NCBI RefSeq assembly: GCF_002886185.1
Contig: NZ_KZ614146.1
Coordinates: forward strand, 3,299,556-3,363,555
Direction of reading: 5' to 3'
Origin: Salipaludibacillus neizhouensis
GTDB taxonomy: Bacteria > Bacillota > Bacilli > Bacillales > Salisediminibacteriaceae
Length of the DNA: 64,000 nt
Part shown: positions 12,476-34,735 of the stretch, piece by piece
How positions within the stretch are numbered: the first letter of the stretch is position 1
Layout of the letters: each line of letters opens with the position of its first letter
Made by a program: the position numbers and the translations under genes
The notes under the pieces: model-generated
Databases searched by the model: none
Told to the model about the DNA's origin: nothing
Seen by the model: only the letters and a program-made list of their open reading frames with translations

Positions 12476-12476
12476 C

Positions 12477-12605
12477 TAAGAAAAACGGCATAGCCGTCTT
12501 TTGTTAAATACAGCGTTAGCTTCCGCCGCCATCTTTTAAGTATCAAGGGTGGGTTTCCCTTGATACTTGCGGCGAGAAGGTAGCTGCTAATTTTATAACT
12601 TCTTA
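12477..12605. repeat. Structured repeat A, copy 1 (short central hairpin)
   Basis: The copy begins TAAGAAAAACGGCATAGCCG and ends TTCTTA. It contains a terminator-like hairpin (ACGGC-ATA-GCCGT then CTTTT) and a long stem (CTTCCGCCGCC with GCGGCG and GAAGG). The stem encloses the hairpin AGTATCAAGGG-TGGGTTT-CCCTTGATACT. It starts one base after the pseudogene stop. The pairing partners vary together between copies (see findings). Confidence 0.85.
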
Positions 12606-12614
12606 TCTCTGAAC

Positions 12615-12652
12615 AAATAATCACACCAGGTAAACCCCCGATGTGATTATTT
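12615..12652. terminator. Terminator for the 12655-12825 gene
   Basis: AAATAATCACA (12615-12625) and TGTGATTATTT (12642-12652) form a perfect 11-bp stem. T/A-rich flanks on both sides make it potentially bidirectional. Confidence 0.65.
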
Positions 12653-12654
12653 AT

Positions 12655-12825
12655 TTATATTAGCGGGAAGTTCTCCTCATAACGAGGATTGGTGTAGTAT
12701 GGTGGTCTTGGTCCTATATTAGGCATTGGCCAAGTATACGGATTGTCGTTATATAACATCTCTACCATTTTCTCAGAAGCATCGACTAGCAGTAGCTCAA
12801 CCTCTGGATTGTAATAATAATCCAC
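12655..12825 (-). CDS. Small hypothetical protein, Tyr/Pro/Asn-rich
   Basis: A GTG at 12825 is preceded seven bases upstream by GGGGAGG and opens a 56-codon frame. The product is rich in Tyr, Pro and Asn (DYYYNPEVELLLVD, PMPNIGPRPPYYTNPRYEEN), a composition often seen in small coat-type proteins of spore formers. I do not recognise a family. The open frame extends to an ATG at 12858 that lacks a ribosome binding site. A terminator follows. Confidence 0.5.
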   Translation of the reverse strand: MDYYYNPEVELLLVDASEKMVEMLYNDNPYTWPMPNIGPRPPYYTNPRYEENFPLI

Positions 12826-12994
12826 TAGATACCCTCCCCTCTGTTTATCCCTAGTCATTAACCTATTCAGCTTGCTCTAAGAAGGTACTCATTCGTCTAA
12901 TATGTCTTTGAATCCAAGCTCAAATTGGCACGTCAAATGCCTACCCAGCATAGATTGAAATAAAATTGGCTGTGTCTAAACTGGGAGGTTAAGC

Positions 12995-13948
12995 ATGAAG
13001 AAAAATAAAAACAATCATTCATCTGAACAATCACAGGCGAAAAAAGATACGTATCCGATGTACCCAAATTACGGGAAAATAACGCGATACGAAGACATAC
13101 CGATCAACGTTCCTGAACAACGTCAGCTTCGCCAACCTGGTTTGGAAAAACTAATGGTTCCATCTCCCATCATTGAGAACCCAAACTATATGGGTAGTGG
13201 TAAATTGTCAGGAAAAGTCGCTCTTATTTCCGGTGGAGATAGTGGGATAGGTGCAGCTGTTGCCATCGCATTCGCGAAAGAAGGGGCGGATGTTGCTATT
13301 GCCTATTTAGATGAGCATGAGGATGCAAATCGAACAAAAGATAGAATTGAAGAACTAGGTCAACGTTGTTTGCTAATGCCTGGTGATCTACGTGAAAAGC
13401 AGCAGTGTATCTATATTGTTGAAAAAACAATCGAAACATTTGGCTCTCTGCATATTCTTTGTAATCACGTTGGTATTCAATTTCAACAAGAAAGCCTGAC
13501 AGATATTACTGATGAGCAATTTGATGACACATTTAAGGTGAATATTTACTCTCACTTTTACACTACTCGAGCGGCACTTCCCTATTTAGAACCAGCTAGT
13601 TCCATAATTAACACTGCCTCGATTGTCGCCTATGTAGGTTTTGGGCAAATGATTGATTACACCGCTACAAAAGGAGCAAATGTCGGTTTCACACGTGCAC
13701 TAGCCAACAATCTGGTAGACAAAGGAATACGAGTGAACGCAGTTGCCCCCGGACGTACTTGGACGCCACTGATTCCAGCCAGCTTCTCTGCAGATGCCGT
13801 TGCAGTGTTTGGCAAAGACAATCCTATGGAACGGATGGCCCAGCCATTTGAACTTGCTCCGACTTATGTATATCTTGCTTCGGATGACTCACGATTTGTT
13901 ACTGGTCAAACGCTTCACGTGAACGGTGGCGAGTGGACATCTTCCTAG
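12995..13948 (+). CDS. SDR family oxidoreductase (YhxC/YdaD-like), first tandem copy
   Basis: The 317-aa protein has a 65-residue N-terminal extension typical of the B. subtilis YhxC/YhdF/YdaD group. A Rossmann NAD(P) site ([20 protein letters not shown]), NHVG, a catalytic Ser in [10 protein letters not shown], the YTATKGA Tyr-x3-Lys motif and a C-terminal [11 protein letters not shown] follow. It is a predicted cytoplasmic NAD(P)-dependent dehydrogenase of unknown substrate; YdaD is a general-stress protein in B. subtilis. GGGAGG precedes the ATG. The next gene is a close paralogue 19 bases downstream. Confidence 0.88.
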
Positions 13949-13967
13949 TTTAAGACAGGAGGTACAC

Positions 13968-14906
13968 ATGAAACGAAAAAATAAAAAAGGTCAAAACTCA
14001 ACCGATCACTATCCTTTGCACTCTCATTACGGGAAAATCACCCGTTACGAAGAAGTTCCCTTAAATTTTCCTGAACAAAGACAATTTCAGCAGCCTGGAT
14101 TGGAAAAGTTAATGGTGCCCCCACCTATCATAGAAAATGCGCAATATAAAGGCACTGGAAAGCTAAAAAATAGAGTGGCCCTTATTTCAGGGGGAGACAG
14201 TGGTATTGGGGCAGCTGTAGCTATTGCATTCGCTAAAGAAGGTGCAGATGTCGCAATCTCCTACTTAGATGAACACGAGGATGCGAACAGAACGAAAACA
14301 AGGATCGAACAACTCGGTCAGAAGTGCCTGTTACTACCTGGAGACTTGCGTGAAAAACAACAGTGTATAAACATTGTAACTCAAACAATCGAAGTTTTCG
14401 GACACCTTGAAATCCTCTGTAATCATGTAGGCATTCAACTGCAACAATTAAACTTGCTCGATATCACAGATGAGCAATTTGATGATACCTTCAAAGTTAA
14501 TGTTTATTCTCATTTTTATACCACAAGAGCAGCCCTTCCTTTTTTATCCGAAGGGTGCTCCATTATCAACACTTCTTCCGTCGTCAGTTATGCTGGCATG
14601 AAAACATTAATTGACTACACTGCTACAAAAGGAGCGAATACTGGTTTCACAAGAGCATTAGCGAGTAATTTGGTTGATCAAGGTATTAGGGTTAATGCTG
14701 TTGCTCCAGGTGCAACGTGGACACCACTTATTCCCTCCAGTTTTTCAGCCGATGAAGTAGCTATATTTGCAAGTGAGAATCCAATAGGACGTGCCGCCCA
14801 ACCTTTTGAACTCGCTCCCACTTATGTATATCTCGCTGCGGAGGATTCACGATTCGTTACTGGCCAAACACTTCATGTTAATGGTGGTCAATGGATGTCT
14901 TCTTAG
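13968..14906 (+). CDS. SDR family oxidoreductase, second tandem copy
   Basis: The 312-aa product is a close paralogue of the upstream gene across its length: the same LEKLMVP segment, the same [20 protein letters not shown] cofactor site, the same YTATKGAN active site and GQTLHVNGG end. The start was set at the ATG at 13968, which has AGGAGG six bases upstream; the frame extends 14 codons into the previous gene. Tandem duplication with divergence is evident. The two genes form an operon ending at a hairpin. Confidence 0.88.
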
Positions 14907-14936
14907 TTTGGTAGATCACTAAACAGCATATTAAGT

Positions 14937-14963
14937 CCTCATGACCTATTTAAAGTCGTGAGG
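14937..14963 (+). terminator. Terminator after the SDR gene pair
   Basis: CCTCATGAC (14937-14945) pairs with GTCGTGAGG (14955-14963) with one G-U pair, followed by TTCTATTTTG. Confidence 0.7.
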
Positions 14964-15094
14964 TTCTATTTTGTGCTATCGAAAGGTAAACTGAAGTATT
15001 TATTGTCCAGAACCGACTTTTTAAATTGTTGTCGGAGAAGGATTCCTTTCATGTATATAATTATGTTAGTATTATTTTATTGACATTTTCTACT

Positions 15095-15250
15095 AAGAAA
15101 ACCGGCATAGCCGTCTTTTGTTAAATACAGCGTCAGCTTCCGCCGCCCCCGAGTAGCACCTACGAAGTGCGTGTAGGTGCTACTCGAAAGGAGGTGGGTT
15201 TCCCTTGATACTTGCGGCGTGAAGGTAGCTGCCCATTTTATAAATTATCT
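15095..15250. repeat. Structured repeat A, copy 2 (alternative central hairpin)
   Basis: The copy shares the left end (TAAGAAAACCGGCATAGCCG) and the outer stem with copy 1. Between the arms, the 5' half of the usual central hairpin is replaced by a different stem, GAGTAGCACCTAC with GTAGGTGCTACTC (about 15150-15186), followed by AAAGGAGGTGGG. The unused 3' half CCCTTGATACT is still there. It ends 20 bases upstream of the next gene. Together with the terminator it accounts for most of the 14907-15269 gap. Confidence 0.8.
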
Positions 15251-15269
15251 CATAAAAAGGAGTGTTGTT

Positions 15270-15812
15270 ATGTTTACATATCGGATAAACAACGAGGCTT
15301 ATATGAAACTTTTAGATATGAATGATGCCTTGCCACTTTTTAATTTGATAAAACGATCAAAGAATTTACACCAGTGGTTGCCATGGGTGGAAGGAACGAA
15401 GGAAGTTACCGACACGCAACAATTTATCCGCATTGCTATGAAGCAATATGCAGATAATAACGGTTTCCAGGCCAGTATATGGTACAGAGGTCAAATTGCC
15501 GGGCTTATTGGCTTTCACCAAATCAATTGGAACAACCGCGCAACAAGTATCGGCTATTGGCTAGGAGAAGAGTTTGAAGGTTTAGGATTAATGACACAAG
15601 CCTGCAATGCAATGATACAGTATGCATTTCGTGACTTGCATTTAAACAGAATAGAAATTCGTGCAGCTGTCCAAAACTATAAAAGCCAGGCAATACCACA
15701 ACGCTTAGGCTTCACAAAAGAAGGATGTATTAGGCAGTTCGAATGGCTTCATGATCATTACTCCGATGCTTTTGTATACAGTTTGTTAGCAGAAGAATGG
15801 GCGACCAGATAA
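15270..15812 (+). CDS. RimL/RimJ-type GNAT acetyltransferase
   Basis: The 180-aa protein has the RimJ/RimL layout: LPLFNLIKRSKNLHQWLPWV near the N-terminus, IAGLIGFHQINWNNRATSIG, the acetyl-CoA segment YWLGEEFEGLGLMTQACNAM and RIEIRAAVQNYKSQAIPQRL. It resembles the ribosomal-protein-serine acetyltransferase group (YdaF-like); the substrate is unknown. The ATG at 15270 has AAGGAG upstream. It probably forms an operon with the gene that starts one base after its stop. Confidence 0.82.
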   Translation: MFTYRINNEAYMKLLDMNDALPLFNLIKRSKNLHQWLPWVEGTKEVTDTQQFIRIAMKQYADNNGFQASIWYRGQIAGLIGFHQINWNNRATSIGYWLGEEFEGLGLMTQACNAMIQYAFRDLHLNRIEIRAAVQNYKSQAIPQRLGFTKEGCIRQFEWLHDHYSDAFVYSLLAEEWATR

Positions 15813-15813
15813 C

Positions 15814-16380
15814 ATGATGTTAAAATCCGAACATGATATTTCGCAACTTATCCAACAATGTAATGACATGATGGAAATACTAAAAGCTGTGCAACTCTTG
15901 AATTTACCTGACTGGTGGGTTTGCGCCGGTTTTGTAAGGTCTAAAATATGGGACACCTTGCACGAATTTCAAGAAAGCACTCCTCTTTCTGACATCGATG
16001 TCATCTACTTTGATGTGATGCAAACAGATGAGCACTTAGAAAAGGAATTAGAACAGGAGTTAAGACGCATCTCCCCTACCTATCCTTGGTCTGTGAAAAA
16101 CCAAGCCAGAATGCATGTCATTAATGACCTCCCCCCTTATAAGTCAGCTGAAGACGGGATTGCTAAATTCCCCGAAACAGCTACTTCATTAGGTGTCCGA
16201 CTGGATACACCAGGAAACGTCGTGCTTACAGCACCACATGGGATACAAGATGTGATCAATTTAATAGTTAGACCAACACCTCTTTTTAAAAGCACTAAGC
16301 ATCTTGCTGCTGTTTATAATCAACGAGTAAAATCTAAAAATTGGCAGTCAAGATGGCAGAGGCTTGTTACCGAAACTTGA
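15814..16380 (+). CDS. Nucleotidyltransferase family protein (NTP_transf_6/DUF925 type)
   Basis: The 188-aa protein contains WWVCAGFVRSKIWDTLHEFQ followed by PLSDIDVIYFD, the divergent nucleotidyltransferase DxD site of the PF06042 family. LGVRLDTPGNVVLTAPHGIQ and the C-terminal LAAVYNQRVKSKNW are also typical of it. The biochemical role of this family is not established. The first ATG follows the preceding stop immediately, and a second ATG directly after it is also possible. Confidence 0.8.
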   Translation: MMLKSEHDISQLIQQCNDMMEILKAVQLLNLPDWWVCAGFVRSKIWDTLHEFQESTPLSDIDVIYFDVMQTDEHLEKELEQELRRISPTYPWSVKNQARMHVINDLPPYKSAEDGIAKFPETATSLGVRLDTPGNVVLTAPHGIQDVINLIVRPTPLFKSTKHLAAVYNQRVKSKNWQSRWQRLVTET

Positions 16381-16449
16381 GGGGAGAAAATCCTATTCTT
16401 AAATGAAAGCTGTTTGACAAATTTATCATTGAAAAGTTTGAAAAAGAGA

Positions 16450-16545
16450 AGGGGATGACTCCCTGCAGATTAGCAGAAACGAACGTTACTTCACGAGCAG
16501 GCGGAAGCATTGCCAGGGGAAAGCTTCCGCCTAGAGCAGATTAAA
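16450..16545. repeat. Diverged copy of dispersed repeat family B
   Basis: ATGACTCCCTGCAGATTAGC, a variable middle and GCGGAAGCATTGCCAGGGGA with CCGCCTAGAGCAGATT match the central and right parts of the repeat at 34769-34868. The terminal TTCGAG is not retained. Confidence 0.6.
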
Positions 16546-16634
16546 ATACCGCTACTTATAACATAGCTATCTACCAGGAAAGAGCCAACCTTCGTTCAAA
16601 ATAGTGAACAACAATTACTTCGATTTTGGTCCTT

Positions 16635-17618
16635 CTACTTTATTTGTAAAAGTCTCCGTTGCGATAAATGTACTAACTCCCCGCTAAGACTACACAATAC
16701 GAGCACCTTTTTATGAGACAAAGCCTGAAACCCTATGTCAGACATATGATCCTGCAATGACGGTGGTAATCGCCGATAATAAGGTTCTAGGGCTAATCCA
16801 TTTGATGTCTCCAAGAATAACCAAAACGCTTCTCCGTATAATTGCCATTTTAAACTTAGTGTTTCTTCTTTTTGTAGTAATCGTAACGCCTTTTGACCAC
16901 ACAATCTATCTTGAATAGGTGATAAGCCGAATTCAAACGAATGTCCTTTCACTCTTAAGTGCTTTCGAAATGCTGTCATTTTCCCAGGGAACTCGGCTGC
17001 GTTAACTTCATTATTAAAAGGTACAGCTGACTCAAACTCTTGATAATGTCCACATAATTGATGAATATGAGGAATGACTCGATCATTAGAAACAGAGTGC
17101 TTTTGAAAGAATAAATATAACAAGGCCGCTTCCGACCAAGCTCCCATCGCAGCGTATGTCGCAGAAAAATTTCTTTTCTCTTTCAGACAGGATTTCGCAA
17201 ACATTGTCCGTGATGTCACAATGTCCGTTACCTGATCCAACTGTTTTTGCCTGCCCTCCTCAGAGAATAAATAATCTTTCACCCAAGTTTGTATATTTTT
17301 TAATTGATTATTAGTATCTATAATAACTATACTCTCGACTAAAAACCGATAATCCCAAGGGCTCTCCATAACCATCCTTTTTGTTGGCAGCTTGTTTAAA
17401 GGTTTTTTGTCTATTTGAAGTATTTCATCCCTATATTCAATATTCTTCGATCCAATAAAACCTCTATCTTTTGAATAAAGTGTTATATCCACATCACTAA
17501 ATTCATCCGCTTCACCTCTAGCTACCGATCCACTTACAAGAACGTGACTTATATTACAATTACTGTCGTAAATATAATTTTTAGCAATATCCATCAGTTC
17601 CAAGCTTCTCTTATTCAT
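16635..17618 (-). CDS. Nucleotidyltransferase-domain protein (aminoglycoside-adenylyltransferase-like)
   Basis: Near the N-terminus, HVLVSGSVARGEADEFSDVD is the GS-x-RG-x(n)-D-x-D active site of the MNT/KNT nucleotidyltransferase fold. The remaining 250 residues are mostly helical, as in stand-alone nucleotidyltransferases. The substrate is not predictable; a resistance function is possible but unsupported. The start was set at the ATG at 17618 because CGGAGGTTAAC precedes it; an open frame continues upstream to 17675 without a site. Confidence 0.75.
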   Translation of the reverse strand: MNKRSLELMDIAKNYIYDSNCNISHVLVSGSVARGEADEFSDVDITLYSKDRGFIGSKNIEYRDEILQIDKKPLNKLPTKRMVMESPWDYRFLVESIVIIDTNNQLKNIQTWVKDYLFSEEGRQKQLDQVTDIVTSRTMFAKSCLKEKRNFSATYAAMGAWSEAALLYLFFQKHSVSNDRVIPHIHQLCGHYQEFESAVPFNNEVNAAEFPGKMTAFRKHLRVKGHSFEFGLSPIQDRLCGQKALRLLQKEETLSLKWQLYGEAFWLFLETSNGLALEPYYRRLPPSLQDHMSDIGFQALSHKKVLVLCSLSGELVHLSQRRLLQIK

Positions 17619-18254
17619 GTTAACCTCCGGAAATTTTGACGTCTCTATAATAGCCTTTTCTATACAATACGACATAATTCCTTGTAGATTTTTCGAAAAT
17701 TTTGCTATATTTTGCAGCTAGGTCATTAGATGTCATTTCTATTGAACTACACATTATCCAAATTCTATTAAGCTATTTTATCTTTATACTACTTTAAGAA
17801 GAATCTATGTTTTTGAATTTGTATCTATATTATCTGAGGCACTATAAAAATTGAAAGAAATATAAAAAAGTAACCTCCTTTCTAATTGTACTTTAATCCC
17901 TCTCGTTAATAGAGTACACCTCTCCAATCTTTCATATGAATAAACGGCTCAAGGCTTGACTAAAAGAGCAAGTCTACAATACTGAACACCCAGCAACCTT
18001 ATTTTACCCCCTAAGAGAACAGTCCCATTAAAGGCTTAAAAATGGATTTCAGGACAAAAAATCATTCTATTTTCCTAGATTTATTATCAGACCTTAATTT
18101 CTTAACTATTTTATGAGGGGCATTTGGAATCCATTCCCTAAGAAACTACAAATAAAAAGCACCTCCCATAGTGGAAGATGCAGTAAAACTACTTTGTGAC
18201 AGAATTGAAATCAACACTAATATCACGGTTATTTTTGGAAAACGAATTCCTATA
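17619..18254. other. 636-bp intergenic region
   Basis: No convincing gene is present. On the minus strand AGAAAGGAGGTTAC occurs near 17870-17885 without a usable start codon behind it. Near 18159-18181 GCACCTCC and GGAAGATGC form an imperfect minus-strand hairpin followed by TTTTTAT, a possible terminator for the HAD gene. Confidence 0.4.
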
Positions 18255-18929
18255 TCAAAAGACCGGCCACTGATTTTTTTCTGCAATTTGCTTCATAGTA
18301 GAGTTAGGATTAACTACTACTGGTTTATTGACAAACTCCAGTAAAGGAAGATCGCTCTCACTATCTGCATACGCCCATAAATTATCGCCGTCTGAACGAG
18401 AAGTCTCATCATGAGACATTTTCTCTCCAATCCAGTCAACAATTTTTCTTACCTTCTCTTGACCGTTTACAATCGTACCTATTTCTCCCGTACAATATCC
18501 TTGATCATCAAATAAGATCTCTGTACTTATCACTGGCACATCCAATTGTAACTCTCTAATAAAAGCTTCAAGAAACGGGGTTAGCGCTCCTGACAATATT
18601 ATCACTTGATCTCCTTTTGACTGATGCTCACGTATTGTATGCACTAAATCTTGATGGACTTCGTGTGATCCCGCTAGAACGAGGTGGTTGAAAAACTCAT
18701 CTAATTCCTGTTTTGTTTTCCCTTTAAACGACTTGGCAAAAGCTTTAAAAAAAGTGTGTCTGAACGCCTGCTTCCCTTTCCATACACCAAGGCCTACAGC
18801 TTTCACCATTCCCCCACTGACTAACAACCACTCTTTCCATGTAAACTCTTTTTCAGCTACTAAAAACATCGCCTTAAATGAGTTACCTTGATAAAGTGTT
18901 CCGTCAAAATCCACTGTTACAATCGCCAT
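18255..18929 (-). CDS. HAD-IB family phosphatase
   Basis: The 224-aa protein has HAD motif I (VTVDFDGTLYQGNSF, nucleophile Asp8), motif II (VIILSGALTPF), a lysine region and motif III (AYADSESDLPLLEFV). The subfamily IB cap resembles phosphoserine phosphatases and lysophosphatidic-type phosphatases. It is probably cytoplasmic; the substrate is unknown. It stands alone, 63 bases downstream of the ABC operon on the same strand. Confidence 0.82.
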   Translation of the reverse strand: MAIVTVDFDGTLYQGNSFKAMFLVAEKEFTWKEWLLVSGGMVKAVGLGVWKGKQAFRHTFFKAFAKSFKGKTKQELDEFFNHLVLAGSHEVHQDLVHTIREHQSKGDQVIILSGALTPFLEAFIRELQLDVPVISTEILFDDQGYCTGEIGTIVNGQEKVRKIVDWIGEKMSHDETSRSDGDNLWAYADSESDLPLLEFVNKPVVVNPNSTMKQIAEKNQWPVF

Positions 18930-18992
18930 CTAAACACCTGCCTCTTTAGCAAGTTTAATAGAGTTGTCCCGAAATGTAAATATATAACAAAA

Positions 18993-19688
18993 CTATTCCA
19001 CTTTAATAATATCAACATTAGTATCATCACCTATTTCTAAACCTTCAGGCACCTTGAGATAAAGGATTTGTCCCCCCATCGATGATGATGAACTGCGGCC
19101 CATCATCTTCGATTCTCCATAGAATTGACTCATAGGAAATCCCATCTCGAACTCTCCGTGATTAATCGTAACCGACAGAGGTTCATAAATATTAAGCGAG
19201 TTATTTTTCAGTTCAACTCTAATTGGACTTACTTCATTAGAAAAATCCCACTCATCTACAATTAATCTAGGATAAAAATAAGTAGCTTCTATCATTTCTG
19301 TATACTCTGACGTTTCCTCCAGATAAACAGCAACGTAGAACTCCTCAGCTTTTTGCTCAATATTCAAAACATCATTCTCGTAGTCAAATGCCCATAACTC
19401 CGTTTTATTTTTATCTACTAACTCTTCGATCTCCCCTTTTAAAAGAGCATCTTCAATATAGATATCTTGTTCATGCACTACATCGCCCTTAGCAATTTCA
19501 CCTTTCAAAGATTCTGTTTCGATTGGAAGCAAAAAAGCAACTGGTACAGAAAGTACTAAAATACTTAAATAACCTAAGAACAACCACTTCAGACCTTTAG
19601 AGTTACTTCTTATTATCTTATTATCGATTCCTTTTTTCATAAAATACACTATCAGTCCAATAATAACTAAAATAATGAGCATCCCCAT
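18993..19688 (-). CDS. Membrane-anchored protein of the YtrA-type ABC operon
   Basis: The 231-aa protein has two N-terminal transmembrane helices (about residues 3-16 and 33-52) and a large, acidic extracytoplasmic domain rich in beta-type sequence. Its ATG overlaps the stop of the permease gene (TAATG), so translation is coupled. I do not recognise a named family. Its position suggests an accessory or sensor subunit of the transporter. Confidence 0.55.
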   Translation of the reverse strand: MGMLIILVIIGLIVYFMKKGIDNKIIRSNSKGLKWLFLGYLSILVLSVPVAFLLPIETESLKGEIAKGDVVHEQDIYIEDALLKGEIEELVDKNKTELWAFDYENDVLNIEQKAEEFYVAVYLEETSEYTEMIEATYFYPRLIVDEWDFSNEVSPIRVELKNNSLNIYEPLSVTINHGEFEMGFPMSQFYGESKMMGRSSSSSMGGQILYLKVPEGLEIGDDTNVDIIKVE

Positions 19689-20293
19689 TAGCGAATCACC
19701 TCCATCTTATTCGTAAGGAGAATCGTGCTTAAATAGATCACCAATATCGAGACTATCATTTTTAAAGTAAATAATACGAATGATGATTCCATCATGAAAA
19801 AATTAATTATCGAAATTATCATACCTTGCTCACCTGAATTGATCATCAATCCACCTAAAAATACAACCGGAATGATTACTTGCAGAGCTTTGTTAAATTG
19901 AATTAGCATCCCAAATAAATAACCTAGTACACTAAAGACTAGTAAATAGAGAAAAGCTGTAGCAAATCCAATTATAAATTCATGAGCTTGGGCTGACATT
20001 AGAAAATCCTCAGTTATGTGTCCCTCATCTTGATAGATAAAAATAATCACTCTGATTAGAAATGGAGACAGAGAGGCCGTTAACGAGCCAAGAAAGCTCA
20101 TTGTCAGCAGAAATAATCCATTTGCTAAATGACTGGTTAGCCGATTTGTTACAAACATAAAATCAGCATATCTATACCCTTTTGTAGTTAGTAAAAACGC
20201 TGTAATAAATCCCCACAACATAGTTAGAACAAAAACACTAGATGCGGAATAGTAATTAATTTTCACTTCAAAAATATCAAAACCCGCACTCAT
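19688..20293 (-). CDS. ABC-2-like permease, apparently missing its N-terminus
   Basis: The 201-residue frame has five to six transmembrane helices (for example SSVFVLTMLWGFITAFLLTT, FLLTMSFLGSLTASLSPFLI and IIPVVFLGGLMIN), typical of the small permeases encoded beside YtrA-type regulators. The ATG at 20293 lacks a good site. A 42-codon frame immediately upstream, with a strong ribosome binding site, encodes what looks like the true N-terminus in another phase, so the gene is probably frameshifted near 20305. Confidence 0.6.
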   Translation of the reverse strand: MSAGFDIFEVKINYYSASSVFVLTMLWGFITAFLLTTKGYRYADFMFVTNRLTSHLANGLFLLTMSFLGSLTASLSPFLIRVIIFIYQDEGHITEDFLMSAQAHEFIIGFATAFLYLLVFSVLGYLFGMLIQFNKALQVIIPVVFLGGLMINSGEQGMIISIINFFMMESSFVLFTLKMIVSILVIYLSTILLTNKMEVIR

Positions 20294-20303
20294 CTCACCA
20301 CTA

Positions 20304-21692: not shown

Positions 21693-21919
21693 GACCACCC
21701 CTCCTTCCATGAGACATAGTGCATTAGTGTTGTAATGTACTATGATTATATCCTATTATTGGAATTAAAGTAAATAGTTTTCTCACTAATTTTTTAAAGT
21801 TTCAATTAATGCTAATGACAATTATTCGGCTTGTTTAAGTGAACAATTTACTCATGAGTTTACTTATGATTCATACATAAATTTCGATTTTTCATAAACA
21901 CTATGTAGTGGAGGTGAGT

Positions 21920-23794: not shown

Positions 23795-23872
23795 CATCGA
23801 AGGTTGTTTTGAAGCATTGCCCGAGAAAAGCGTCCGCCTAGAGCAGATTCGAGTCCTCTCTGTTAAAAGAAA
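23795..23872. repeat. Right half of dispersed repeat family B
   Basis: GAAGCATTGCCCGAGAAAAG, CGTCCGCCTAGAGCAGATTC and GAGTCCTCTCTGTT match the right half of the copy at 34769-34868. The preceding TGTTGCTTTATAATCATCGA is shared with 2950-2985. Confidence 0.65.
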
Positions 23873-26617: not shown

Positions 26618-26619
26618 CG

Positions 26620-27435: not shown

Positions 27436-27482
27436 TACTCACCCACTCTCGTTTTCTAGTATCATTGATGAGGATATCTCCA

Positions 27483-27537
27483 TTCAATTAGTGTATACTA
27501 TATTTACTAATTTAAAATATAGTATAACACATTGAAT
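27483..27537 (-). promoter_or_regulatory. Extended dyad with CcpN-like operator
   Basis: TTCAATTAGTGTATACTATA pairs, with gaps, with the arm TATAGTATAACACATTGAA about 8 bases further on. On the minus strand TGTGTTATACT (27531-27521) fits TRTGHYATAYW, which I recall as the CcpN consensus, at every position. The other arm is one base short of it. CcpN represses gluconeogenic genes in B. subtilis. Confidence 0.5.
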
Positions 27538-27808
27538 TCAGAATTAAATATAATATTCCGATTTTTATGATTAGTATTTAAAACCCTTCACCATACTGGT
27601 TATATGCCTCTCTGTAAATGTACTCATTTAACTATTAAAAAAGAAGTGATTCCGTTAGTATTTATAATAGATAGTTCCTTCACTCCTTTAAATCTATCTT
27701 TAGGTGGAAACTCTACTAGGGGATCTTTATAATGAAGTTCAGATTGAGAAAACCAAGTATAGTATAAAGCGCTCAGTAAAAGCTCGAACAACTGGCAGCC
27801 TAAAGTGA

Positions 27809-27913
27809 AAAGCAAAAAAAGCCCTCGTTCCCGGGTACGGGAAAAAAGGCATGGGGTGGGTGAAAAAACCAGAAAAAGCAGCGTACAATAAAGTTTATAA
27901 GAAAAACGCGTAG
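27809..27913 (+). pseudogene. Orphan C-terminal coding fragment, cut by repeat A copy 3
   Basis: A 34-codon frame preceded by a stop and lacking a start encodes LVPGYGKKGMGWVKKPEKAA followed by YNKVYKK, a protein-like basic sequence. The last codons belong to the left end of repeat A (from 27898). It looks like the remnant of a gene into which the repeat inserted. I do not recognise the parent family. Confidence 0.3.
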
Positions 27914-28050
27914 CGTCTTTTATTAAATACAGCGTTATCTTTCGCCACCCCGAGTAGCACCTACGTAATGTGTGTAGGTGCTACTCGAAAGGAGGTGGGT
28001 TTCCCTTGACACGCGTGGCGTAAAGATAGCTGTCAACTTGCACATTCTTA
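27898..28050. repeat. Structured repeat A, copy 3 (alternative central hairpin)
   Basis: The left end is TAAGAAAAACGCGTAGCGTC and the right end CACATTCTTA. The terminator-like hairpin is ACGC-GTA-GCGT instead of ACGGC-ATA-GCCGT. The outer stem is TATCTTTCGCCAC with GTGGCGTAAAGATA. The centre is the GAGTAGCACCTAC / GTAGGTGCTACTC hairpin, as in copy 2. Confidence 0.85.
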
Positions 28051-28145
28051 TCTATCAGAAAAACCTCATTCAGCTTTTGGGACTTCCTTAAGAAACTTAA
28101 GTAAGGCTAGTTTTAATTCCAATAATTTTCTATTTCAACTGTTTT

Positions 28146-28898
28146 TTAGCCGTATATCGTTTTTAATGCATGATCGTCTACGTCCTGAGGTGACCCATCA
28201 AAAACAAGTCGTCCTTCTGCTAAACCAATGATGCGGTCACAATATTCCAATGCAAGTTCTACATTATGCAAATTAATAAGTGTCGTCATATTTTCTGTGT
28301 CATGGACGTCACGAATTAACTGCATTACTTCTTTAGAAGTGGTTGGATCTAAACTCGACACTGGCTCGTCTCCTAAAATTAATTTAGGTTTTTGCATAAT
28401 CATCCTGGCAATTGCTACGCGCTGTTGCTGTCCACCACTCAATTGATCCACTCGTTTATGAGCCATATGGTCAATACCAACTCGTTCCAAGGCACGCATT
28501 GCTCGTTCTCTTTCTTCTGCTGTAATCAAACCAAGCATATTCTTCCACCTTGGCCGATAGCCAAACCCACCCATCACACAGTTTTTATGTGCGCTGAGCC
28601 GAGGTACAAGATTAAATTGTTGAAAAATCATCCCAATTTCACGTCTTGTTATACAGAGTTGGTCTTTATTCATTGTCGTCATCTCTTTATCTAACCATAT
28701 CACCTTTCCATGACTTGGTCTGACTAATTGATTAATACACCGAATAAATGTAGATTTCCCAGCTCCGCTTCGTCCCAATACACCAACAAATTCTCCTTGT
28801 AGGATAGATAAGTTAATACTATCAAGTGCCTGTTCTTTTTTACCTTTATTCCCTTTACTTTTATAGATCATCGAAACATCTTGTAGTGTTAATACCAT
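28146..28898 (-). CDS. phnC: Phosphonate/phosphite-type ABC transporter ATP-binding protein
   Basis: The 250-aa protein has Walker A (GVLGRSGAGKSTFIRCINQL), the PhnC-typical EIGMIFQQFNLVPRLSAHKN, signature LSGGQQQRVAIARM and Walker B LILGDEPVSSLDP. It energises uptake through the adjacent permease. The ATG at 28898 was chosen because AGGAGG lies eight bases upstream. It is last in the phnD-phnE-phnC series. No C-P lyase genes are nearby, so the ligand may be phosphonate, phosphite or phosphate. Confidence 0.92.
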   Translation of the reverse strand: MVLTLQDVSMIYKSKGNKGKKEQALDSINLSILQGEFVGVLGRSGAGKSTFIRCINQLVRPSHGKVIWLDKEMTTMNKDQLCITRREIGMIFQQFNLVPRLSAHKNCVMGGFGYRPRWKNMLGLITAEERERAMRALERVGIDHMAHKRVDQLSGGQQQRVAIARMIMQKPKLILGDEPVSSLDPTTSKEVMQLIRDVHDTENMTTLINLHNVELALEYCDRIIGLAEGRLVFDGSPQDVDDHALKTIYG

Positions 28899-28910
28899 GA
28901 CTTGCACCTC

Positions 28911-29657
28911 CTAAATCACCCGATTTCGCACATAGCTGCCTAACATGTCAACAAAAACAACCAGACCCATAATAAACAGTACGTACAAACTAACATTGTC
29001 ATATCTAAAGGTTTGGAAATCATTAAACAACAGCTGTCCTATTCCTCCTGCTCCAATAAACCCTAGGATTAGAGAGGTTCGAATAGCAACTTCAAAACGG
29101 TAAAAGTAATGAGATAGCACGTTAGGGATAATTTGCGGCAGAACACCATAAAGTGCAACCATGCTTTTACACAGTCCCATTGACTGAACAGCTTCTTGCG
29201 GTCCTTTATCCGCCGACTCAATGAGCTCTGCAATAAGTTTTCCAAGCACGCCAACGTTGTGAATAAAAATAGCTAGAACAGCCGCGTATGGTCCTAATCC
29301 GATTAACACAACAAAAAAGAGACCTAACACAATATCAGGAACAGACCGAAGAAAACTGAGCATGCTTCTTACCGTGTGGTATACATACCCATTTGGTGAC
29401 GTATTATTTGCAGCTAAAAAGCTGATCGGAATCGCCACTAGCAAAGCTAGAATTGTTCCTAAAAAAGCGACTTGTAACGTAATCAGACTAGCACTTAAGG
29501 CTACATTAGTTCTATCCCAATTAGGTGGGAAAAATCGTTCTGAGAAGGCCACAAAATTATCTAATGGGATTGGCCTGACTCCTGTTCCAATAGAACTCCA
29601 AATGACGATCCCAAATATAAAGACAGTTATTAAAATATTCTTTTTATTAAACCACAT
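28911..29657 (-). CDS. phnE: Phosphonate-type ABC transporter permease
   Basis: The 248-aa protein has six hydrophobic helices and the binding-protein-dependent permease loop (GPQEAVQSMGLCKSMVALYG with the following LPQIIPNVLSHYFYRFE). These are characteristic of PhnE, with AIRTSLILGFIGAGGIGQLL near the end. Only one permease gene is present, so it would act as a homodimer. It is 12 bases upstream of the phnC start. Confidence 0.92.
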   Translation of the reverse strand: MWFNKKNILITVFIFGIVIWSSIGTGVRPIPLDNFVAFSERFFPPNWDRTNVALSASLITLQVAFLGTILALLVAIPISFLAANNTSPNGYVYHTVRSMLSFLRSVPDIVLGLFFVVLIGLGPYAAVLAIFIHNVGVLGKLIAELIESADKGPQEAVQSMGLCKSMVALYGVLPQIIPNVLSHYFYRFEVAIRTSLILGFIGAGGIGQLLFNDFQTFRYDNVSLYVLFIMGLVVFVDMLGSYVRNRVI

Positions 29658-29704
29658 AAGTACGTCACCACTATTCCTTTGACCTAAAGTATTTTATCTA
29701 TTCT

Positions 29705-30589
29705 TTACTCAGCGTCAATTTCGCCTTCTTCAATCATGATGTCACGAATTAATTGATAGTCCTCATCTGTAGCTTCGGTAAATCCAGTTGCTGCAAATCC
29801 TTCTAATACCACTTCATTATCCATGTTTAAAAATGTTTCTTTAATCAATTCAACCGTTTCATCATCTACGTCAGGTGATACCGACCACGGATATTGAAAT
29901 AAAGCTTCGGATTGCCAAATTACTTTCGTTTCAGATTCATCAAGAGTTCCTTGCTCAATAAGCGAGTTGTAAAAAGCACTATCAATTGCTCCAGCGTCCA
30001 CTTGATTACTTTCTACTTGCTCTCCGGTTATATCATGAGATCCAGAAAAACTAACAACATCAAACTCATATTCTTCTTCATTTGTGTAAACACCACGATC
30101 ACTTAATTCCTTACCGGGAACGAGAGAACCGGATGTAGAAGAAACAGAACCAAAAGCAAAGGATCGTTCTTCCACGTTTTCCAAGAATTCATCCAATGTA
30201 TCCCATGGATTGTCCGCGTGAGTAATAATATAGGAATAGTAAGACGCTTCACCGTCAATGAGCTGTGTAATAATTGCTTCTGCTCCTGATTCATCATTTG
30301 CACTTACATACGTTCTCGGTCCTAAGTAAGCCATTTGAATATGTCCGTAGTTCAAGCCTTCCACAACACCATTATAATTTGGATAAACCTCTATTTCGAC
30401 GTCCTGAGGAAGGGCTTCATCTAATTCACCTTCTAATTCTTCTACTGCTTCAAGAAACTCATCACCCGATAATGCTGGGATGACGCCTACATGAAACGTT
30501 TCTCCAGCTTGTTCTTCCTCATTTTCGCTACATCCTGCTAGTATTGCCACTAAAGTGGCCGTAATCAATCCTTTAGTAATTAGTTTCAT
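29705..30589 (-). CDS. phnD: Phosphonate-type ABC transporter substrate-binding lipoprotein
   Basis: The 294-aa precursor has a lipoprotein signal (LVAILAGC, Cys20) and PhnD-family features: GVIPALSGDEFLEAVEELEG, EVYPNYNGVVEGLNYGHIQM with AYLGPRTYV, SFAFGSVSSTSGSLVPGKEL and VESNQVDAGAIDSAFYN. It captures the ligand outside the membrane. The family cannot be resolved further by eye between phosphonate and phosphite. Confidence 0.9.
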   Translation of the reverse strand: MKLITKGLITATLVAILAGCSENEEEQAGETFHVGVIPALSGDEFLEAVEELEGELDEALPQDVEIEVYPNYNGVVEGLNYGHIQMAYLGPRTYVSANDESGAEAIITQLIDGEASYYSYIITHADNPWDTLDEFLENVEERSFAFGSVSSTSGSLVPGKELSDRGVYTNEEEYEFDVVSFSGSHDITGEQVESNQVDAGAIDSAFYNSLIEQGTLDESETKVIWQSEALFQYPWSVSPDVDDETVELIKETFLNMDNEVVLEGFAATGFTEATDEDYQLIRDIMIEEGEIDAE

Positions 30590-30628
30590 TTTATTTCCCC
30601 CAAAATTGTTTATTTAACTTCTACTATG

Positions 30629-31657
30629 TCAAGATTCATTCAAACCTCTAAAAATTGACAGATAGTCTGTTGTCTCTTGCTCAACGGTCCGTTCATGTTG
30701 AAAATAAGCTTGTGCTCTTTCTGTCATACGTTTTGTCTCCAAAGGATTTTTCCTAATACGGTTGATAAGCTCTGGAAAATCAGAAGGATATTGATATATG
30801 TATCCTGTTTTGCCATGTTTGATTAACTCACTGTTGCCGGCATTATTTCTTGCAATTACGGGGATACCCAGTGCCATCGCCTCGCAAAGTGCCGTGGATT
30901 GTCCTTCTTCTTTGGACGTATTAATCACAACATCAGCCTCTGCATATACATTGCCCATCTCGTCAAACGGAACTGTCGAATGATATTCCAAAAAAGAATA
31001 GTAATCACAAGCGGCTAATACTTCCCGCTCCACATCTTTATCAAGTGGTTCGCCAATCACCTTTACTTTCAAAAAGGGTATCTGCTTGTCCAGGTCTTTC
31101 CAAGCATCTAATAGATGTAATACATCTTTAATCGGTCTTAAGCCTGCCGGAAGTAAAATCTCAAACTTTTCATCTTTGTTAGATCCTTGATCTGTTCTCT
31201 TTGGAGGAATAACAGCCTGCGGAACAACCTTTACTTTTCCTTCCCAATCCGGGTTGACCTCAACTACCATTTTTCGTGCTTCCTCACTAAAACAAACGAC
31301 TGCCGTTGATTGGTTAACAAGATTCACAGTTGTTTCATTCCACCCTTTTTCAGCGAGGTCTACATGCACATCTGTTCCACCCATTGTTAATATAAAAGGC
31401 TTATTATAATCAAAGTTGCATTTCTGTTCATCAACCCACTTAGCAAATCTCGTAATGTGTAAAATATGCACCCAAGTACTCTCCCGGAGTATCTCCTCGA
31501 ACTGCTTTCAGGTGCCTCCTTCATTATAGGCAAAAGATCGGACAGGGTAGCCCCTTTTCTCATAACCTTCTTTTATTCGACGAGTTGTTGTCACGTTACC
31601 CCGTCCTGCTTTGTCAAACGGTGTTACAAAAGCAATAACGTTTCCGTTATCCATCAT
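30629..31657 (-). pseudogene. Glycosyltransferase family 4 gene interrupted by an in-frame TGA
   Basis: From ATGATG at 31657 the frame reads NGNVIAFVTPFDKAGRGNVT and RRIKEGYEKRGYPVRSFAYN, meets TGA at 31508-31510, and continues in the same phase to 30629. The downstream 280 residues have GT4/GT-B features: ILLPAGLRPIKDVLHLLDAW, VYAEADVVINTSKEEGQSTA and LCEAMALGIPVIARNNAGNS. Full length would be about 342 residues. The stop near codon 50 means either a nonsense mutation or restart downstream (GTG at 31471). It lies directly upstream of phnD on the same strand. Confidence 0.7.
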
Positions 31658-32024
31658 ACCCTACCCCTTTCAAACTTTCATATATATTGCTCAGTTAAGA
31701 AAAACCGCATAGCCGTCTTTTGTTAAATACAGCGTCTGATTCCGCCGCCATCTTTTAAGTATCGAGGGTGGGTTTCCCTTGATATGTGCGGCGTGAAGGT
31801 AGCTCCTAATTTCATAAATTCTTAACTGAGCGCAATCTTTTCACGGTTGTACCTTTTATATTTTGACCTATGTATGCAATATAATCCACTAGATCGGCTT
31901 ACTATTTGCTTATACAGTTAGTTTTCCACTAATGACCATCCTTTAAAACATGTAAAAACGCCCAGAGAACTTCTCAGAGCGTTTCATCAATACGGTTATT
32001 TTTTTATAAATGCCTAATATCTCT
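31658..32024. other. 367-bp intergenic region containing repeat A copy 4
   Basis: Repeat A occupies 31689-31831. The remaining 190 bases are AT-rich. AAACGCCCAGAGAACTTCTC followed by AGAGCGTTT (31956-31984) forms a hairpin, AAACGCtC-type arms around GAGAAGTTCTC, that could terminate the 32025-32309 gene on the minus strand. Confidence 0.5.
31689..31831. repeat. Structured repeat A, copy 4, with extended terminal inverted repeats
   Basis: GCTCAGTTAAGAA at the left and TTCTTAACTGAGC at the right form a perfect 13-bp terminal inverted repeat. Inside are ACCGC-ATA-GCCGT, the CCGCCGCC/GCGGCG outer stem and the AGTATCGAGGG-TGGGTTT-CCCTTGATAT central hairpin (two G-U pairs). Confidence 0.85.
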
Positions 32025-32309
32025 CTAGATATTTGAGCAGTTCTTATAGTTAGTGCAATAATTCTTATCAATTTTCTTAAACACTTGTTGTCGATCCTCA
32101 TTATTGCATGACAAACTGGAAATCAACTGATATCTGGCATTAAAGTAATTCACCCATATATCCCAAAGTTTCTCTCTCGTCATTTCAAGATCGTATTCCA
32201 ATGAATTCTCTTGTAAAATCCATTCGATCTCTTCACGGGGAGGAGTATCCTTCGAACTTAATTTCTGTAAAGGCTTATATCTCGATCTTTGTTGCCTCAA
32301 AAGACTCAC
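32025..32309 (-). CDS. Small hypothetical protein downstream of the XRE regulator
   Basis: The 94-aa product is charged and mostly helical by composition (EEIEWILQENSLEYDLEMTR, EKLWDIWVNYFNARYQLISS). It has cysteines near the C-terminus (CNNE, YCTNYKNC). A GTG start has AAGGA upstream. It follows the XRE gene by 45 bases on the same strand, so co-transcription is likely. Function unknown. Confidence 0.5.
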   Translation of the reverse strand: MSLLRQQRSRYKPLQKLSSKDTPPREEIEWILQENSLEYDLEMTREKLWDIWVNYFNARYQLISSLSCNNEDRQQVFKKIDKNYCTNYKNCSNI

Positions 32310-32354
32310 CTCAATCCTTAATAATTGCAGAATAAATGTTAGACCACAAACTTT

Positions 32355-32783
32355 TTAAGAAGGCTTTTCTTCATCAATAGCATTAAGATTCGTCAATATA
32401 TCATCTAGAATAATAAAAATAATTTTCTCTAGATGTTTTCTTTTTTTATAGGGCATTATAGATAATTCATATAATGAATCTCTCATTCTAGGATTATGTT
32501 TTATATAGTGCAAAAGTTTGATGCTTATCTCACCAAGTTCTTCTATATTTTGATTTTGCAAAGCTATAGCTGTTTCTTTATGCTTCTCATATCCTACAAG
32601 AGTATCCAGATTTATCTGAAAGATATCACATAGTTTTATCAAAGTTTGGAGATCAGGAGTACTTTCCTCATTTTCCCAACGAGTAATAACTGTACGTGAA
32701 ATGTTTAGCTTTGTTGCTAAGTCTTGCTGTGTCCATTTATATAACCTTCGATAGAGGCGAACATTATCACTTAAACGTATCAT
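32355..32783 (-). CDS. XRE-family HTH transcriptional regulator
   Basis: The N-terminal 65 residues form a Cro/CI-type HTH: LYRRLYKWTQQDLATKLNIS, RTVITRWENEESTPDLQTLI and LCDIFQINLDTLVGYE. A 75-residue helical C-terminal domain follows. It is probably a DNA-binding repressor, perhaps of its own operon or of the divergent Spo0E-like gene about 160 bases away. Confidence 0.85.
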   Translation of the reverse strand: MIRLSDNVRLYRRLYKWTQQDLATKLNISRTVITRWENEESTPDLQTLIKLCDIFQINLDTLVGYEKHKETAIALQNQNIEELGEISIKLLHYIKHNPRMRDSLYELSIMPYKKRKHLEKIIFIILDDILTNLNAIDEEKPS

Positions 32784-32946
32784 TTTTTATCACATCTTTT
32801 TCTTTGTGTCTTTCTAAGTGTAACATCAATAACCAACCAGACAAGACTATGTGCTGTATTTGAACAATTCAATTATTGTGTTACTATAAAACTAATATAG
32901 GGTATAGGTGGTAATATATAAATTACCTACTAAAGGACTGATATCA

Positions 32947-33117
32947 TTGGACAATCCCAAGAACGATCAACTTAAGAGAGACATAGAAGAAATGAGAATA
33001 GATTTAGAAACTCAATTAAAAAGAAGAAAGTTCAGTAATCTTAAAATTATTGAAATCAGTCAAAATTTAGATGATCTTATTGCTGAATATATGATTAAAA
33101 CGAATAAAACAAAGTAA
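32947..33117 (+). CDS. Spo0E-like aspartyl-phosphate phosphatase
   Basis: A TTG at 32947, with AAAGGA nine bases upstream, gives a 56-residue protein of the right size. The sequence DIEEMRIDLETQL followed by IIEISQNLDDLIAEYM contains the Spo0E motif SQ-x-LD-x-LI. Such proteins dephosphorylate Spo0A~P and delay sporulation. The frame also extends to a GTG at 32908. It is divergent from the XRE gene. Confidence 0.72.
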   Translation: MDNPKNDQLKRDIEEMRIDLETQLKRRKFSNLKIIEISQNLDDLIAEYMIKTNKTK

Positions 33118-33365
33118 GTCAGTTCCGGTTATTAGTCCTAAATGTTTCACATTATCCAGAAGTTAAATTGAAATGTTAATAAAGAACCTTCACCAAATAC
33201 TCCTAAACTATTCGATCTTTTCAAATGTCTACTTATTGCTCCTGAAAAACCACTCTACAACTAAATGTTATTCATCATACAACAATTACTTTTACACCAA
33301 AATAATAATCATGCTCTTATCATCATATATTCTAAGATAACTTCGTTTAAAAGGAGAATAGATGT

Positions 33366-34562
33366 ATGAATATTAGAGCACGACGAGGTGACAGTTTTTG
33401 GTATTACAGCAGACTTTTTAATATCCCATTAAATTTGATAACTGACTCGAATCCAACAGTTGATGCTGGGTTATTACAAATAGGTCAGATTGTAAGAATC
33501 CCGGGGTATTTCGTGAACTTTTATACGATTCAGCCTGGAGATTCTCTTTGGAGGATTTCTAATCAGCTAGAAGTCAGTGTGGATACACTTTATCTGGTAA
33601 ACCCCACTCTAAACCCCTACGCTCTTCAAATTGGGCAAACAATTAATGTACCCTTTAGAGTTCATCGTCCGATCGTTGAAGGAAAAAGAGCCTACGGTTA
33701 TAACTCACTAGTAAATGATATCAGGCAGCTCACTGAGATCTATCCATTTTTGACTTCTCGTTCCATAGGAAATTCTGTGATGGGAAAAAATCTTATCGAA
33801 CTGAGTATTGGTCGCGGTGCTAAAAAAGTACACATGAATGGCTCCTTCCACGCACACGAATGGATTACCACTCCTCTATTAATGCAGACACTAAATCAAT
33901 ACTTATTGGCGCTAACAAACATGCAACCTATCAGAGGTTGGGATGTATCGCCTTTTTATGAATCGGTATTTTTGTCTATCGTGCCTATGGTGAATCCAGA
34001 TGGCGTAGACTTGCTAATTGAAGGATTACCGGATGAGGAACCATATCGCAGTGAAGTATTAGAAATAAATAACCAAAGTACTGACTTTTCCGGGTGGAAA
34101 GCAAACATTCGAGGGGTAGACTTGAATAATCAGTATCCGGCTTTATGGGAGGAAGAACAAGAAATATCAGACAAACCTGACCAACCTGCACCTAGAGATT
34201 TTCCGGGCCCAGCACCTTTGACAGAACCAGAATCTATAGCAATGGCAGAATTAACCGACGTCTCAGGATTTCATAGAGCGTTAGCTTTTCACACACAAGG
34301 CAGAGTAATCTATTGGGGATTTCAAGGTCTTGAGCCACCAGAGGCCGAAACAATTGTTACTGAGTTTGCCCGCGTCAGTAGCTATGAGCCCATTCAATAT
34401 GTGGAAAGTTATGCGGGCTATAAAGATTGGTTTATTCAAGAATGGAGAAGACCCGGATTCACGATTGAATTAGGCGAAGGCGAAAATCCTTTGCCGATTG
34501 GCCAATTTGATGAAATTTACGAAGAAAGTCTGGGAATATTTCTCGCTAGCTTATATATGTAA
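33366..34562 (+). CDS. LysM-M14 gamma-D-glutamyl-meso-diaminopimelate peptidase (ENDO I type)
   Basis: Two LysM domains (about residues 3-48 and 52-97; the second begins YTIQPGDSLWRISNQLEVSV) precede an M14 zinc carboxypeptidase. Zinc ligands are visible in SFHAHEW (HxxE, about 160-163) and AFHTQGR (about 308), and the catalytic glutamate in FTIELGEGENPLP (about 366-370). The architecture matches endopeptidase I of spore formers, which cleaves the gamma-D-Glu-mDAP bond in peptidoglycan. No signal peptide is present, as in the forespore-associated enzyme. AAAAGGAG precedes the ATG. Confidence 0.88.
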   Translation: MNIRARRGDSFWYYSRLFNIPLNLITDSNPTVDAGLLQIGQIVRIPGYFVNFYTIQPGDSLWRISNQLEVSVDTLYLVNPTLNPYALQIGQTINVPFRVHRPIVEGKRAYGYNSLVNDIRQLTEIYPFLTSRSIGNSVMGKNLIELSIGRGAKKVHMNGSFHAHEWITTPLLMQTLNQYLLALTNMQPIRGWDVSPFYESVFLSIVPMVNPDGVDLLIEGLPDEEPYRSEVLEINNQSTDFSGWKANIRGVDLNNQYPALWEEEQEISDKPDQPAPRDFPGPAPLTEPESIAMAELTDVSGFHRALAFHTQGRVIYWGFQGLEPPEAETIVTEFARVSSYEPIQYVESYAGYKDWFIQEWRRPGFTIELGEGENPLPIGQFDEIYEESLGIFLASLYM

Positions 34563-34569
34563 AGTTTTT

Positions 34570-34697
34570 TAAGAAAAACGGCATAGCCGTCTTTTCTTAA
34601 ATACATCGTTATCTTTCGCCACCATCATTTAAGTGTCAAGGGTGGGTTTCCCTTGACACGCGTGGCGTAAAGATAGCTGTCAACTTATAAATTCTTA
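34570..34697. repeat. Structured repeat A, copy 5 (short central hairpin)
   Basis: It starts 8 bases after the peptidase stop and has ends TAAGAA / TTCTTA. The terminator-like hairpin is ACGGC-ATA-GCCGT followed by CTTTTC. The outer stem is TATCTTTCGCCAC / GTGGCGTAAAGATA and the centre AGTGTCAAGGG-TGGGTTT-CCCTTGACAC. The first hairpin with its T-run may terminate the peptidase transcript. Confidence 0.88.
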
Positions 34698-34702
34698 TCT
34701 TG

Positions 34703-34735
34703 TAAGAAAAACGCATAGCGACTTATTTAAAGCAA
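34703..34735. repeat. Left-end fragment of repeat A
   Basis: TAAGAAAAACGCATAGCGAC restarts the left end of the repeat 5 bases after copy 5 ends, then diverges after about 30 bases. The remainder of the 34563-34980 gap holds repeat B and the purD terminator. Confidence 0.6.

Follow-up and report, generated by a model that had tools for sequence, protein, structure and literature searches.

Five copies of a structured repeat, here called repeat A, lie within 64,000 nucleotides of Salipaludibacillus neizhouensis DNA (contig NZ_KZ614146.1, positions 3,299,556 to 3,363,555; this whole stretch is called the window), and a sequence-only reading of the stretch had suggested that paired changes in their arms reflect selection for folding, or mobility through a folded single strand. 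What kind of element is repeat A, and by what route might it have spread? We somewhat favor the answer that it is a non-autonomous mobile element, similar to a miniature inverted-repeat transposable element (MITE) in having no gene of its own, that moves as folded single-stranded DNA and inserts at the foot of hairpins. The evidence for this reading comes from the copy number and layout of the repeat, its stems, its orientation relative to replication and its insertion sites.

Copies and layout of repeat A

Copies of repeat A follow a common plan of TAAGAAAAAC and hairpin 1, a linker, a long stem bearing an apical hairpin, and TTTTATAAATTCTTATCT. In the written orientation hairpin 1 (ACGGC-ATA-GCCGT and variants) is preceded by an A run and followed by a T run, after which the consensus of 26 copies, about 130 nucleotides (nt) long, proceeds through the linker TTAAATACAGCGT, the long stem CTTCCRCCGC / GCGGYG-T-GAAG with its apical hairpin, TAGCTG and A/T-rich DNA to the end motif TTCTTATCT. 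The element ranges from about 130 to 160 nt and has three stems; by match length, 91 of the 150 copies listed are short and 59 are long, and the long copies inspected carry another apical hairpin.

That all copies lie in the accessory region between yerA and purD, as the sequence-only reading had it, proved to be an effect of the window, the genome copies being spread over contigs C1-C4. A covariance model built from the 26 copies (R1) matched all 150 best candidates scored in the genome (weakest E-value 4.2e-10), a 20-kb piece of the window used as a BLAST query added 29 places, and window copy 3 is outside the 150; the 5.5 Mb genome therefore contains at least 180 copies. Further full copies were present in two regions inspected later (L212, L217).

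A search of related genomes, which the sequence-only reading had proposed, yielded copies in four relatives. In a family sample R1 matched at E 1e-4 in 5 of 35 genomes, S. neizhouensis (G000) included, with 70 matches among 93 scored in G045, a member of another genus, and 3, 2 and 1 in G010, G008 and G050, respectively, whose copies (1-3 per genome) are diverged. None of seven congeners gave a match at this threshold. In a wider sample, matches at E 0.001 were found in 3 of 40 genomes (G000, G008 and G010), and copy 1 had no match at 1e-5 in plasmid (72,556 records) and phage collections.

Compensated change and folding

We assessed compensated change in two alignments, one of 26 copies, all from G000, and the other of 22 copies from two genera, 10 from G000 and 12 from G045, each compared with 500 shuffles that ignore shared descent. 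Among the 26 copies, 22 cells show change on both sides of a pair (5.8 in shuffles), 5 pairs carry such two-sided change (1.9 in shuffles), and the covariation score is 0.085 (0.054 in shuffles), none of these values being reached in any shuffle. The two-genus alignment likewise exceeded every shuffle in two-sided cells (27 vs 9.3) and in covariation score (0.139 vs 0.079). Two results count against selection for folding, namely that the number of pairs with two-sided change shows no excess in the two-genus alignment (5 vs 3.9; 127/500 shuffles), and that further pair types rise above shuffles in neither alignment (384/500; 125/500). Some proposed pairs are also unsupported, including one of the outer stem, which is unpaired in 24 of the 26 copies and 17 of the 22, and the outermost and innermost apical pairs, which are unpaired in 14 of 26 and 13 of 22 copies, respectively.

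The five window copies fold at z scores of -4.2 to -8.5 relative to 200 shuffles each, copies 2 and 3 being folded as a 148-nt core and the others whole, and seven copies from G008, G010 and G050 together with one from G045 fold at z -4.0 to -10.4. The copies in G008 and G050 have a different hairpin 1 on the same plan and with the same end motifs, while those in G010 differ in hairpin 1, long stem and apical hairpin and still keep the plan and end motifs. Exceptions among the other-genus copies are L061, which is without hairpin 1, L065, in which hairpin 1 is unfolded, and L064, which is without its 3' end; L063 and L066 are cut within hairpin 1 by the model boundary. Judged from these sequence comparisons, selection for folding of repeat A is supported, with the two-sided cells, the covariation scores and the plan kept across genera in its favor, and the pair count, in excess in one alignment only, and the further pair types as its weaker part.

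Orientation relative to replication

Y1 transposases work on the lagging-strand template (PMC6006769), and the copies of repeat A are strongly oriented with respect to replication. When local GC skew is used to assign the leading strand, the written strand is in the lagging sense in 130 of 149 copies, one of the 150 having been dropped for want of a neighbor gene on one side; within the window, the GC skew of the + strand is negative in each of the eight 8-kb bins. Along contig C1 the orientation of 94 copies changes 15 times, compared with 45 times in shuffles (minimum 30). The same bias is seen in G045, where, with borders chosen from the data, 27 of 27 copies between 0.8 and 2.95 Mb are on the + strand and 24 of 27 elsewhere are on the - strand (51 of the 54 copies listed). 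Orientation in these 54 copies changes 8 times, compared with 27 in shuffles (minimum 14), and the sign of the GC skew at G045 loci is as expected from the same rule in 12 of 12 cases.

Insertion sites and nested insertions

The information at the insertion site lies on one side of the element. In 100 of the 150 copies, aligned at their ends (50 were left out), the 3' flank contains the motif NNTAANAAAA at 6.3 bits, compared with 0.8 bits on the 5' flank; the element boundary is not fixed to the base, and some of NNTAANAAAA may be element sequence. The mean folding energy of the 60 nt 3' of the element is -11.8 kcal/mol (shuffles -6.3), compared with -6.8 kcal/mol on the 5' side (shuffles -6.0) and -8.0 kcal/mol at 74 random intergenic points. 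With the 37 of 150 copies that have a hairpin-1-like piece after them set aside, 69 of 113 copies have a hairpin of -8 kcal/mol or better on the 3' side and 32 of 113 have one on the 5' side, and by eye many of the 3'-side hairpins among the flanks listed are terminator-like. Head-to-tail pairs of copies are also present, and would be explained by the likeness of the 5' end of the element, TAAGAAAAAC with its hairpin, to the target.

Copies of repeat A also interrupt a second interspersed repeat, repeat B (CTCGAAGTAGCGAAGGCGGCGACTCCTGCGG ... CTAGAGCGGATTCGAG), which occurs in the window near 23838, at 34771-34900 and at 50526-50640. Such nested insertions are found at C1:103157, C2:660524, C1:3543692 and C1:2844476, the last resting on a 70-73% match, and uninterrupted copies of repeat B are present elsewhere. 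Some repeat B copies have the same motif at the 3' end as repeat A and stand beside terminator-like hairpins.

The end motif has 81 matches in the genome, and the 19 regions inspected, mostly around matches outside the 150 listed copies, contain full copies, deletion derivatives, hybrids, repeat B and one further repeat with the same end. Short derivatives at C1:2920508 and in L219 retain hairpin 1 and the end motif only, and hybrids in L215 (G000:C2:1167832) and L222 (G000:C2:1128368) have another middle, a replacement segment that contains GTGCTACTTTTGTAGGTGCTA. This segment is also found downstream of a 204-codon Y1 frame in L069. The 3' part of L214 (G000:C2:1052712) has a GTGCGG...CCGCAC hairpin, after which come the end motif ATTTTATAAATTCTTATCT and an A run, and looks like a further repeat-like end. 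No longer, autonomous copy was seen in the 19 regions, where the sole transposase frame recognized is the Y1 gene at C2:1165381, the other frames having been viewed without any search for identity.

A proposed route of movement

We propose that the strand with the sequence of the lagging-strand template (the reverse complement of the strand as written here) would fold, that an enzyme supplied in trans would cut its ends, and that the cut element would then be joined to exposed single-stranded DNA at a hairpin foot, immediately 3' of a T-rich stretch. Typical targets would be the intrinsic terminator of a gene or the terminator-like hairpin 1 of another copy, the latter giving rise to head-to-tail arrays. 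The suggestion of mobility through a folded single strand is indirectly favored by the strand bias, the one-sided target and the nested insertions; on the other side, the search for an enzyme found none.

Several observations weigh against this proposal. Of the random intergenic points, 30 of 74 reach -8 kcal/mol, and the excess of hairpins over them is modest. A flank suffix of at least 5 nt is shared in 21 of 150 copies, compared with 9.2 expected (500-shuffle maximum 20). The 61 clean copies (89 of 150 were dropped from this test) show no constant target duplication, and no length or position stands out strongly; at two fixed positions they do slightly exceed the shuffles, the largest values being 6 matches of 3 nt versus 1.3 (shuffle maximum 5) and 3 matches of 4 nt versus 0.3 (shuffle maximum 3), and CCTC is repeated at C2:660524, so that these sequences leave room for a duplication in some copies. 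The orientation is opposite in 19 of 149 copies, and gene direction is a partial confounder of the strand bias. Congeners showed no empty site, their matches to the 20-kb window stretch being genes at 65-75% identity.

The remaining points of this kind concern the mobilizing enzyme. In the genome 7 Y1_Tnp matches exceed the cut-off, fragments of broken genes among them, and none of the 7 loci (L067-L073) contains an R1 match at E<=1. Nor is there a Y1 clade common to the genomes that carry the element, whose Y1 rows do not group in a 32-row tree (9 changes, shuffles 8.0) of the Y1 genes with fetched loci, some Y1 genes being left out. The end motif beside the Y1 gene at C2:1165381, at first sight a right end shared with the element, is better explained as a separate insertion of repeat B; this gene was rejected as a carrier of the element ends because the motif 3' of it forms the end of a truncated repeat B, with a terminator-like hairpin alongside, and because G002 and G003 have a 63% identical Y1 gene, seemingly in the same place (flanks judged by eye), without the motif.

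The presence of a Y1 gene was also rejected as an explanation for the presence of the element, since Y1 genes occur in 24 of the 35 genomes and the element in 5. Relatives of the S. neizhouensis Y1 protein were found at eight loci, in Bacillus, Mesobacillus, Lentibacillus, Caenibacillus and two distant metagenome-assembled genomes. In L196 (G050), L204 (G016) and L205 (G045) the Y1 gene is directly upstream of a frame that by eye we take to encode something like a single-strand DNA-binding protein, and in L183 (G008) and L184 (G016) it is directly upstream of what is presumably, again by eye, a ComM/YifB-type frame.

It is the random points at the hairpin threshold and the possible duplications that keep our confidence in a folded, single-stranded, non-autonomous element just past the midpoint. 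Decidedly more tentative is a wider reading, in which repeats A and B and their variants would make up a modular family, marked by one 3' end in common and by the targeting of hairpin feet. Their spread, in the form of folded single strands at the replication fork, would be due to an enzyme other than a dedicated RAYT (tyrosine transposase associated with repetitive extragenic palindromic, or REP, sequences) or an intron reverse transcriptase; the element's own terminator-like hairpin would be a target, and copies would seed arrays of the element.

Alternative explanations

One alternative is that repeat A is a classical MITE which a DDE transposase moved in trans in double-stranded form, with TAAGAA/TTCTTA as terminal repeats, target duplications since eroded, and a strand bias produced by selection against copies that oppose transcription or replication. 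The short inverted ends and the excess of shared flanks of at least 5 nt are consistent with this, as is the finding, from crude open reading frame calls, that the 3' neighbor gene is oriented toward the element in 119 of 149 cases. However, the terminal repeats extend over 6 nt only, the clean copies have no constant duplication, the target information is confined to one side, and the bias of 130 of 149 is above the 75% that we assumed for gene direction alone (p 0.0003). We consider this explanation unlikely.

Repeat A might instead be mainly a functional structure, a putative bidirectional transcription terminator or RNA element maintained by selection at gene ends, with mobility in its past only. 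Such a role would suit the A and T runs around hairpin 1, the conservation of the stems by compensation and the preference for gene ends, gaps between diverging genes being rare (both neighbors point away from the element in 12 of 149 cases by the same crude calls). It is difficult to reconcile with the absence of copies from the seven congeners of a genome that has so many, with hairpins that already stand at many insertion sites, with middle parts that are swapped or lost, and with the lack of an Rfam match at gathering score, and we regard it as distinctly improbable.

Very improbable, finally, is a relative of retroelements, with a group II intron reverse transcriptase copying a short RNA into terminators. 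While group IIC introns insert at terminator motifs (PMC4424553) and the genome has 9 domain V matches, 8 of them over the Rfam cut-off (contigs C1, C2 and C3), a relation to these introns was rejected because the window has no group II intron match at gathering score and 5 intron loci, searched for three element motifs at <=4 mismatches, gave a single 4-mismatch match, at the far edge of one locus, which the end motif hit in its forward and its reverse-complement form alike.

Features of the window

The five full copies described in the sequence-only reading are all matched by R1 on the + strand at E 8.2e-12 or better (Table 1), window copies 1, 4 and 5 being part of the model's training set. 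Much of the description of the arms was also correct: hairpin 1 of copy 3 is ACGC-GTA-GCGT, the outer stem is CGCCGC/GCGGCG in copies 1, 2 and 4 and CGCCAC/GTGGCG in copies 3 and 5, and the central stem is GTATC/GATAC in copy 1 and GTGTC/GACAC in copy 5. The assignment of ACGGC-ATA-GCCGT to three copies was overstated, as it is perfect in copies 1 and 5 only, with one uncompensated mismatch each in copy 2 (CCGGC) and copy 4 (ACCGC). As for the shared TAAGAA/TTCTTA-type ends, TTCTTA forms the 3' end of copies 1, 3, 4 and 5, and copy 2 reads TTATCT. Copies 2 and 3 have a different apical hairpin, GAGTAGCACCTAC...GTAGGTGCTACTC, which had gone unremarked. The flanks of copy 4, TTGCTCAG and CTGAGCGCAA, are near-complementary, as though it sat within a host palindrome, and about 20 nt separate the end of copy 2 (window 15094-15260) from the probable ATG of a GNAT acetyltransferase frame, in whose leader the copy may lie.

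Table 1. Repeat A and associated features in the window
Feature	Position	Strand	Basis	R1 match span
Copy 1, short form, TAAGAAAAAC to TTCTTATCT	12477..12608	+	171.4 bits (R1)	12476-12615
Hairpin 1 of copy 1, ACGGC-ATA-GCCGT; A run 5', T run 3'	12485..12497	+	sequence and fold	
Long stem of copy 1, CTTCCGCCGC with GCGGCG-A-GAAG	12520..12579	+	sequence and fold	
Apical hairpin of copy 1, inside long stem, GTATCAAGGG / CCCTTGATAC	12540-12566	+	sequence and fold	
3' end motif TTCTTATCT of copy 1	12600..12608	+	sequence	
Terminator-like hairpin at 3' foot of copy 1, AAATAATCACA / TGTGATTATTT	12615..12652	no strand	by eye	
Copy 2, long form, other apical hairpin	15094..15250	+	99.8 bits (R1)	15093-15260
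Copy 3, long form	27898..28053	+	73.5 bits (R1)	27897-28060
Copy 4, short form	31696..31827	+	140.4 bits (R1)	31695-31834
Copy 5, short form; then hairpin-1-like piece, then repeat B	34570..34701	+	153.5 bits (R1)	34569-34707

Comparison with known systems

The sequence-only reading had not recognized repeat A as a named family, and this stands insofar as no Rfam family matches the repeat at gathering score, while the comparison with the bcr1 repeat is one of descriptions. An Rfam scan of the window at gathering score gave a purine riboswitch aptamer alone (48028-48128, minus strand, 76.1 bits), and the best match in a permissive scan of copy 5 reached 18.7 bits, compared with a gathering score of 39. 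A search of literature titles and the beginnings of abstracts, which left most subscription papers outside its range, gave no description of repeat A, and an earlier one may exist.

The bcr repeats of the B. cereus group are likewise high-copy, MITE-like, similar in length and found in Bacillus (PMC6542083, PMC2267715, PMC3446304). They differ in that bcr mobility is tied to TTTAT motifs and to the B. cereus group (PMC6542083). From the same paper bcr1 copies are expected in plasmids, and copy 1 of repeat A matched none of the 72,556 plasmid records. Group IIC introns share the use of intrinsic terminator motifs as targets, whereas repeat A has neither a domain V match nor a reverse transcriptase.

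REP and REPIN sequences are hairpin repeats that lie between genes in many copies and are believed to depend for their movement on RAYT Y1 enzymes, which act in trans on single-stranded DNA (PMC3733652, PMC8266576, PMC6006769). Repeat A is also high-copy, intergenic and hairpin-forming, in a genome with Y1 genes, but at three stems it is much longer than the 20-40 nt of REP, none of the 7 Y1 loci of the genome was found to have flanking copies, and by eye GTAG is missing from all three hairpin feet of the short form in the 26-copy consensus (hairpin 1, long stem and apical hairpin); in the long form GAGTAG stands at the foot of the apical hairpin. The REP/RAYT papers, as searched by term in their accessible portions, offer little on Bacillota: PMC6006769 and PMC2817692 mention neither Firmicutes nor Bacillus there, PMC8266576, searched for Firmicutes, does not mention it, and both Bacillus mentions found in PMC3733652 concern bcr1.

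Elements of the IS200/IS605 type (IS608, ISDra2) resemble repeat A in their hairpins near the ends, lagging-strand bias (PMC6006769) and, leaving aside the small excess of matching flanks in repeat A, lack of a constant target duplication. Repeat A differs in being without a transposase gene and in having two variable bases between the target motif and its end. In IS200/IS605 elements such as IS608 the target remains on one side.

By analogy, repeat A would act like an IS200/IS605-type or RAYT-moved element, membership being established in none of these groups. New here are the strand bias in two genomes, the one-sided 3' target motif with its hairpins, and the nested insertions into repeat B. 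If the proposed route is correct, terminators would be landing sites for single-stranded DNA elements in addition to punctuating transcription, and orientation bias combined with compensated stems would provide a computable signature of such mobility in Bacillota.

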